A stretch of 64,000 nucleotides of DNA from Brachyspira innocens ATCC 29796 (GTDB lineage Bacteria > Spirochaetota > Brachyspiria > Brachyspirales > Brachyspiraceae), in the NCBI RefSeq assembly GCF_000384655.1, contig NZ_ARQI01000118.1:1-64000 (forward strand). The letters run 5' to 3'. The translations under genes and the position numbers were made by a program. Positions 428 to 56,806 of the stretch are shown here, piece by piece (within the stretch, counting starts at the first letter, position 1; each line of letters starts with the position of its first letter). A model generated the notes under the pieces. It was not told the DNA's origin, made no database searches, and saw nothing but the letters and a program-made list of their open reading frames with translations.

Positions 428-431
428 AAAT

Positions 432-575
432 AGACTTGTTTCAAAACTATTTTTATTTATAATTTCGGGGACTAGCCCCCGCACCCCACTTCTTTTGCCG
501 AATAGGCACCTACTCGGTGGTGACCCAAAGAAGCAGGCACAGCCCGCAGACGCGAAAGACTGCATATTTATATAT
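432..575 (-). repeat. GC-rich dispersed element, copy A (reverse orientation)
   Basis: A GC-rich island in an AT-rich gap. Read on the minus strand it begins GCAGTCTTTCGC, carries CTTCTTTGGG, a CCGAGTAGG/CCTATTCGG pair, AAGAAGTGGGG and the palindrome GGGGGCTAGTCCCCG, and ends ATAGTTTTGAAACAAGTCTA. The same blocks in the same order occur at 11369-11544, 34213-34285 and 56706-56806. Open frames across it on both strands are GC-driven and not believed to be genes. Its role is unknown; it could be a non-autonomous mobile element or a structured RNA. Confidence 0.7.
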
Positions 576-704
576 TAAAATGATAAATTATACAACATGT
601 AAAACATACGATTTATTTAATAATTAATATTATATAATTTAGCATAAAATAATAAACTCATGAAATTATTTGTCAAGTACTTTTAAAAGAAGTCTAATAA
701 CTAA
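576..704. other. AT-rich spacer without a recognisable gene
   Basis: The rest of the 364-754 gap is plain AT-rich sequence between the GC-rich element and the second copy of the terminator hairpin. I see no conserved open frame or RNA here. Confidence 0.5.
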
Positions 705-11126: not shown

Positions 11127-11634
11127 GTTATAGCCTCATAATAAAATTCTTATATTATTATAACATTAATATAAAAATAAAAAACAGCTATTTTCTTTTT
11201 ATATGAGTAATTACAGCAAAAATAATGAACTATCGATTAAAAATTATTAAGAATTTATTTTAATAGAAATAATTGGACTTGTTTCGAAACTACTTGACAG
11301 AATTATATATAAAAATTTAGAAATTTATCAATCATAAAAATAATGTTTTATAATCCTATCGTTTTAGTATATAAATATGCAGTCTTTTTGCTTCTTTGTG
11401 CCACGCCACGGGCGGACAGCGTCCAAAAGAAGTGGGATTTTGCGAAGCACGCAGAGCTGGGGGCAAAGCCCAAACTATAATCAAAAAAATATTAAATTAA
11501 AAAACTATAAATATTAAAAAATTGAGTTTTGAAACAAGTCTATTATAATAAAAATCACTTTTCAAAACTATTGATATAATAACTATTGCATATATAATCA
11601 TTATATTAAAAAAATTAATTAGGAAATAGTATCA
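11127..11634. other. Long intergenic region before purL holding a GC-rich element
   Basis: No gene is seen in these 508 bases. They hold the divergent start region of the VOC gene, a reverse fragment of the repeat end (GGACTTGTTTCGAAACTAC at 11276-11294), GC-rich element copy B (11369-11544), and an AT-rich leader with AGGAAA before the purL ATG. Confidence 0.6.
11369..11544 (+). repeat. GC-rich dispersed element, copy B
   Basis: It begins ATATGCAGTCTTTTTGCTTC, contains GGGCGGACAGCGTCC, AAAAGAAGTGGG and GCGAAGCACGCAGAGC, and ends GTTTTGAAACAAGTCTATTA. The last 82 bases (11463-11544) match 56143-56224 in copy D with about five differences by eye and no gap. Confidence 0.75.
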
Positions 11635-34212: not shown

Positions 34213-34285
34213 TATGGGGGCTAGCCCCCATACCCCCACTTCTTTTGTTGTTACAAAGAAGCAAAAAAACTGAATTTTTATATAT
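34213..34285 (-). repeat. GC-rich dispersed element, copy C (partial, reverse)
   Basis: It contains the palindrome GGGGGCTAGCCCCC, CCCCACTTCTTTTG and CAAAGAAGCAAAAA, matching copies A and F, but lacks the GTTTTGAAACAAGTC end. It lies between the PD-(D/E)XK nuclease gene and rimO. Confidence 0.65.
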
Positions 34286-55896: not shown

Positions 55897-56060
55897 AATC
55901 CTCTAAAATATAATTTTTTACTTGATATTAGAGAAAGGATAATACAATGTAAAACAATTTTAATCAATAGTATTTTTACAATTATTTTACAATATTTACA
56001 ATTTAAGTATAATTTAGACTATTTTTTTAAAATATATACTGAAAATTTTTAAGTTTGTCA

Positions 56061-56224
56061 AAAGTCAGTTTTTCAAATTTATTGTTGTGGTAGTTTTGCC
56101 CTGCGAAGCACGCAGAGCGGTCACACTGTGTACTTCGTAAGAGCAAAGCCCCAACTATAATTAAAAAAATATTAAATTTCAAAACTATAAATATTAAAAA
56201 ATTTAGTTTTGAAACAAGTCTATT
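56061..56224 (+). repeat. GC-rich dispersed element, copy D
   Basis: It carries GCGAAGCACGCAGAGC and CTTCGTAAGAGCAAAGCC. The last 82 bases match copy B with about five differences, ending GTTTTGAAACAAGTCTATTA. Confidence 0.7.
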
Positions 56225-56253: not shown

Positions 56254-56309
56254 AAATGTATAAATTTTTGATAAAGTTTTTATTTAATGAATATCTTATC
56301 AACTTTTTT
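56242..56309 (+). repeat. Direct repeat, unit 1
   Basis: ATTAATAAAAATAAATGTAT through TTATCAACTTTTTT is repeated at 56524-56590 with a few changes. Confidence 0.8.
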
Positions 56310-56523: not shown

Positions 56524-56590
56524 ATTAATAAAAATAAATGTATAAATTTTTGACAAAGTTTTATTTAATGAATATATTATCAACTTTTTT
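56524..56590 (+). repeat. Direct repeat, unit 2
   Basis: Second copy of the unit at 56242-56309. It is followed by a different GC-rich patch (CCATACACGCTCTGCGGGAT), while unit 1 is followed by TCGTCAAAAAAAGTTGC. Confidence 0.8.
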
Positions 56591-56705
56591 GCCATACACG
56601 CTCTGCGGGATTCGCCAAAAGTTTCCGCTTTGTGAAAGTGCAAGTCACAAATAATAATAAATTGTACCAATTATGTTTTACATGTATGATAAATTATTAA
56701 ATTCA

Positions 56706-56806
56706 GTATAAAATGCAGTCTTTTTGCTTCTTTGGGCCACCAAAAGAAGTGGGGAGGCTAGTCCCCGCAATTATAAATAAAAATAGTTTTGAAAAAAGTC
56801 TATTAT
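56706..56806 (+). repeat. GC-rich dispersed element, copy F (short form)
   Basis: A compact form: ATGCAGTCTTTTTGCTTCTT, then CAAAAGAAGTGGGGAGGC, TAGTCCCCG and ATAGTTTTGAAAAAAGTCTA. In reverse this is close to copy A without its central hairpin. Confidence 0.75.

Follow-up and report, generated by a model that had tools for sequence, protein, structure and literature searches.

The window, a 64,000-nucleotide stretch at the start of a contig of Brachyspira innocens ATCC 29796, harbors five copies of a short GC-rich intergenic element. The original prediction described five copies sharing the same blocks, and all of them were found in the sequence as described, with cores richer in GC than their surroundings (42% for copy D versus 11-19% for its flanks). 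The shared blocks form the GC-rich core of a MITE of about 200-370 bp with 5'-AGACTTGTTTCAAAA ends. The copies, their target-site duplications and their cores are as follows.

429..431, no strand: AAT target-site duplication of copy A, one side
432..695, minus strand: copy A, complete MITE of 264 bp; right end exact, left end with 3 mismatches
460..563, minus strand: hairpin core of copy A, rich in GC; nested palindromes lie ahead of hairpin 1 and within it
696..698, no strand: AAT target-site duplication of copy A, other side
11272..11274, no strand: ATT target-site duplication of copy B, left
11275..11541, plus strand: copy B, complete MITE of 267 bp
11379..11480, plus strand: GC-rich core of copy B, with nested palindrome CGCCACGGGCGGACAGCGTC in the loop of hairpin 1
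11542..11544, no strand: ATT target-site duplication of copy B, right
34213..34285, minus strand: copy C, reduced to its core (hairpins 1 and 2)
56035..56061, plus strand: left end of a second MITE family (TATACTGAAAATTTTTAAGTTTGTCAA, 1 mismatch), left of copy D
56062..56221, plus strand: copy D, whose core contains nested palindromes and whose right end belongs to the IS5-type family
56657..56801, plus strand: copy E, in which an internal left arm is followed by a simple core and an IS5-type right end

Anatomy and abundance of the elements

Copy A runs from a TTGACA-bearing left end at 695 to its right end at 432. Its core and one of its ends had been recognized previously; its full extent, 432-695, had been missed. 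The interval initially assigned to copy B (11369-11544) was likewise incomplete, the corrected span being 11275-11541 with ATT on both sides. No end was detected alongside copy C in a search allowing up to 4 mismatches, and this copy is a decayed core remnant. Copies D and E retain intact or near-intact right ends of the IS5-type family (56205-56222 and 56785-56802, respectively), and no matching left end of that family was found for either of them. Copy D aligns with the right-hand part of a complete MITE at 90% identity over 80 bp; copy E, which lacks its left end, aligns with a complete MITE at 85% identity over 139 bp. Between copies D and E, there are two occurrences of an AT-rich repeat that terminates in CAACTTTTTT (window positions 56263-56309 and 56544-56590); hairpins of the type CAACTTTTT...AAAAGTTG, which resemble this repeat, were seen in the composite elements L066, L083, L084, and L098.

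The general layout was deduced from a set of 60 elements with paired inverted ends (132-672 bp, most of them 200-370 bp) collected from the own genome and related genomes. It consists of a left end AGACTTGTTTCAAAAGTACTTGACAA, an AT-rich arm, the core, and a right arm ending in TTAGTTTTGAAACAAGTCT. The core starts with GCAGTC and continues with hairpin 1 (CTTCTTT...AAAGAAG) and hairpin 2 (GGGG...CCCC). The sequences that were read contained only the core and the arms, without a transposase gene, and the open frames over the core palindromes were shorter than 100 codons. The base located immediately outside the two ends was the same on both sides in 47 of the 60 elements. Two adjoining MITEs were observed at L017:1398-1852, where a second core with its own right end begins at the right flank of the first element.

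BLAST searches of the own genome (3.28 Mb in 130 contigs) with copy E (101 bp) returned 64 matches, including nine with E<1e-22. The right block AGTTTTGAAACAAGTCTA was found, with up to 3 mismatches, 88 times in the forward and 88 times in the reverse orientation, versus 8 and 8 times for the reversed control. With the 17 bases of the right-block end and at most 1 mismatch, the corresponding counts were 42 and 49, versus 0 and 0. The block ATAGTTTTGAAACAAGTCTA constitutes an end of a longer element. It is present in both orientations and often in inverted pairs 150-400 bp apart. The end was detected within 1 mismatch in 24 of 26 genomes of the genus (0 to 207 matches per genome, with almost all controls at zero). 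The genome-wide and genus-wide searches thus revealed many copies with shared ends rather than a few isolated repeats, and the elements are common in most Brachyspira species. They provide an abundant mobile family for these gut spirochaetes of pigs, birds, and people.

Empty sites and the parent insertion sequence

The flanks of nine insertions were joined and compared with the 26 genomes. For most of them, a single BLAST alignment crossed the junction in a sister species, and base-level alignment identified clean empty sites for six insertions (L095, L034, L005, L022, L002, and L011). The empty sites of L095 (ACATTAATA) and L034 (GATATTTAAA) allow only one reading, namely a 3-bp ATT duplication flanking an element AGAC...GTCT. 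A TA or TAW duplication, which was our first guess, was ruled out by these two alignments. A seventh insertion, L014, is common to three species (genomes G000, G009, and G015), indicating that it is older than their split. Comparison of orthologous gaps therefore revealed precise empty sites in sister species, as expected from a mobile family, and the elements offer presence/absence markers between species. These alignments demonstrate past transposition with AWT duplication, whereas the IS5-type mechanism is judged from the ends and from the parent element described below.

Searches for DDE transposases in the genus led to remnants whose 3' end continues directly into a MITE-type right end. 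One of the genomes with such remnants, that of B. pilosicoli PC5538III-hc, yielded a minimum of 13 right and 14 left ends of a single insertion sequence, nearly all of them at contig ends, as expected for a repeated insertion sequence that the assembler did not resolve. All of these ends contained the exact 17-bp end, and most were flanked by AAT or ATT. The transposase fragment matched Pfam DDE_Tnp_1/DDE_Tnp_4 (1e-19) and the NCBIfam IS5 model (7.6e-28), the latter with a score under the curated cut-off, as a fragment would give. The insertion sequence and class-2 MITEs share the first 26-29 bp of their left ends without a difference. In genome G004, a bridging element (L192) combines a MITE-like left arm, a C-terminal remnant of the transposase (58% identity, E 5e-20), the right end of the insertion sequence, and AAT on both sides; this intermediate ties the family to its parent. 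On the basis of its transposase and ends, the parent is assigned to the IS5 family of insertion sequences.

The proposal that the repeats are a non-autonomous mobile family is borne out: the ends form inverted pairs, 3 bp of the target are duplicated, orthologous sites without the element exist, and a parent insertion sequence was identified. The elements have the features of MITEs, since they are short, bounded by terminal inverted repeats, flanked by target-site duplications, absent from empty sites, and devoid of an internal transposase. Taken together, we consider with a probability of about 0.9 that they are MITEs with 5'-AGACTTGTTTCAAAA ends moved by an IS5-family transposase made elsewhere, with duplication of AWT, and that their core is a structural cassette containing palindromes. 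According to this model, the transposase would recognize the MITE ends in trans and insert the element at a T-AWT-A site, of which AWT would be duplicated. The core would be kept as a structure, and the palindromes of about 20 bp would lengthen its hairpins.

No intact insertion sequence encoding this transposase could be retrieved as a single piece; contig ends split the copies of B. pilosicoli, and the only frames seen were one of 192 codons and decayed ones. The own genome contained decayed remnants and no intact transposase gene. The copies of the B. innocens strain are therefore probably relics of past activity or reliant on incoming copies of the insertion sequence, and their current mobility is doubtful. 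The longest transposase remnant (L187, in G011:C74) lacks its 5' part and adjoins, on both sides, genes that look by eye like those of IS3 or IS481.

Several other candidates were discarded. RUP, which is linked to IS630, and other IS630 derivatives such as Correia elements are associated with a TA duplication and a DDE_3 transposase. An IS630 parent was rejected since DDE_3 was not detected in the own genome and the duplication is AWT, not TA. Two candidate autonomous copies turned out to contain ordinary genes: the 3.6-kb gap at the L005 site of G009 (L179) and, in G006, two ends 2.7 kb apart (L185). Orphan ends in the fetched loci had no adjacent transposase, and these ends were not encountered in those flanks of Acinetobacter homologues (39-63% identity) that were read.

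A core shared by two families and interrupted by palindromes

A second MITE family has 27-bp ends, TATACTAAAAATTTTTAAGTTTGTCAA / TTGACAAACTATAATTGTTTAGGTATA and relatives, with 22 end pairs, some of which overlap. A core of the same kind was detected in 13 of these 22 pairs with a loose pattern. Members of this second family are located as follows.

L012:1463-1689: second-family MITE
L285:1426-1747: second-family MITE
L098:821-1137: second-family MITE
56035-56061 of the window: second-family end

L012, from the second family, and L002, from the first, are 90% identical over 84 bp, in their interior only. Copy D of the window is a hybrid, which begins with a second-family end and closes with a first-family end. 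The GC-rich core is best read as a passenger cassette of two stem-loops common to two MITE families. The association of one hairpin cassette with two types of ends means that the interior of a MITE can change vehicle. When read outward, both second-family ends display a promoter-like TTGACA-17-TATA arrangement completed by flanking target bases.

At a few points, the core is broken up by GC-rich palindromes of about 20 bp, which are apparently nested within the hairpins. The loop of hairpin 1 varies from 11 to about 90 bases in length, in a list that also contains some chance matches unrelated to the element. Nesting deeper than one level was judged by eye from the list of loops. The palindrome CACGCAGAGCGG occurs 69 times in the own genome with at most 1 mismatch (control, 0), some of these occurrences being in a separate tandem-like repeat. 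This different repeat, CACCCGCCCAAGCG...CCTAAACGCACGCAGAGCGGATTTTTTAAATA, was found at L275-L304 (e.g. L277, L279, and L300-L304) with several copies on one contig at spacings of about 350 bp or 1 kb, and these are probably unrelated tandem units. Exact copies of CGCCACGGGCGGACAGCGTC were present in seven fetched loci, counting copy B and some places fetched more than once. At the orthologous L014 locus, the 19-bp CGCCACGGGCGGACAGCGTC is present in the loop of G000 and G009 and absent from G015, the remainder of the element being nearly identical. This difference is a single 19-bp indel, which fits a gain as well as a loss.

Two explanations may account for the multiplication of these palindromes. 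The first, to which we give about even odds, is that the palindromes are not mobile and have spread by recombination or gene conversion among MITE copies and by template switching at hairpins. Conversion predicts the recurrence of identical palindromes at identical core positions, which was observed, and the sole difference between species, the simple indel at L014, may be read in either direction. However, the same palindromes are also found at other core positions, in the second family, and in other hairpins, and the flanks at L014 are nearly identical on both sides, so that a conversion tract would need to be very short. The second explanation, which we regard as tentative and the less probable of the two, is that the palindromes are independent micro-mobile elements that target hairpin loops, entering the hairpins of several transposon families as well as one another, nested hairpins being built stepwise with the fold kept. 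Cyanobacterial small dispersed repeats and Rickettsia palindromic elements are short palindromes found inside other repeats, structured RNAs, and genes. The Brachyspira palindromes resemble them by description and differ in sitting in MITE hairpins, apparently with more than one level of nesting. Since one orthologous insertion already differs by species, the family lends itself to studying, in a natural setting, the multiplication of palindromes of about 20 bp.

Structure of the core, genomic context, and related elements

Four cores fold better than shuffled sequences (z of -2.1 to -3.8), with a predicted energy of -43.7 kcal/mol for the RNA fold of the core of copy A (z -2.1). The pair closing hairpin 1 is C-G in 19 instances and G-C in 8. 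For hairpin 2, complementarity of the two outer pairs was seen in 29 of 34 instances, with five combinations, related copies being counted more than once for both hairpins. These pairs were counted directly on the sequences; automatic alignment had placed hairpin 1 of the GTTCTTT class one base off. Since the stem pairs covary, the structure is probably under selection, although pairing at the DNA level would leave an identical signal. Among 52 elements with flanking open frames, 22 were located between convergent genes and 5 between divergent genes (p 0.0015). For the 25 elements located between co-directional genes, 19 were in the orientation of the genes and 6 in the opposite orientation (p 0.015). 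The frames were called mechanically and some of the elements are related, so that this orientation bias is only a lead.

These observations bear on the proposal that the repeats are a structured RNA or a terminator. The structured core is supported by two conserved stems with compensatory changes. The core might then be the functional unit, i.e. a repeated structured RNA (a small RNA or an element of mRNA ends) under selection, for which the transposon ends are only a vehicle. The covarying stems, the folding scores, the presence of the same core in two families with different ends, and the orientation bias are in favor of this possibility, which we nonetheless consider unlikely. Indeed, Rfam gave no match above the gathering score in the window, the number of end matches per genome ranges from 0 to 207, the copies lie between unrelated genes, and the covariation is equally expected if the hairpin acts as DNA. 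Amplification by chance of transcription terminators is very improbable, and strongly disfavored because of the empty sites. It was suggested by the hairpin-rich, gene-free character of the repeats and by the excess of convergent over divergent neighbors, a position bias that is explained by avoidance of gene 5' ends. Terminators would leave the inverted ends, the duplications, and the empty sites unexplained, and in the copies read by eye neither strand showed a T-run after the hairpins.

We therefore retain the transposition of IS5-derived MITEs as the preferred reading. Transcription through an element would leave neighboring mRNAs with a stable double hairpin at their untranslated ends, thereby altering mRNA ends. 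With less confidence, we infer that the likeliest effect on the host would be exerted at the RNA level, in line with reports on Correia and ERIC elements. Correia/NEMIS elements of Neisseria and ERIC elements of enterobacteria are reported to affect mRNAs via RNase III cleavage or 3'-end insertion (PMC10969869). They are intergenic MITEs with transcripts that fold into hairpins (PMC10969869), as those of the Brachyspira family would. In contrast, the Brachyspira ends are different and the hairpin is an internal cassette that is not formed by the ends.

MITEs derived from the IS5 family are known in bacteria, as exemplified by a P. gingivalis MITE with a minisatellite (PMC4596501). The Brachyspira elements resemble such derivatives of insertion sequences in being short, non-coding, and intergenic, with ends similar to those of insertion sequences and a short target duplication. 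They differ by a Brachyspira-specific sequence, a hairpin core found across two types of ends, and nested palindromes. No description of the Brachyspira MITE was found in the open-access literature searched. A MITE of an IS5-family insertion sequence is a known kind of element; what sets the present family apart from an ordinary MITE is its shared hairpin cassette together with its nested palindromes. Finally, the RUP and BOX repeats of Streptococcus pneumoniae are modular small repeats thought to depend in trans on an insertion sequence (PMC3049150). The Brachyspira family is similarly modular, with modules in a fixed order, and differs from RUP in its link to IS5 and in its AWT duplication.
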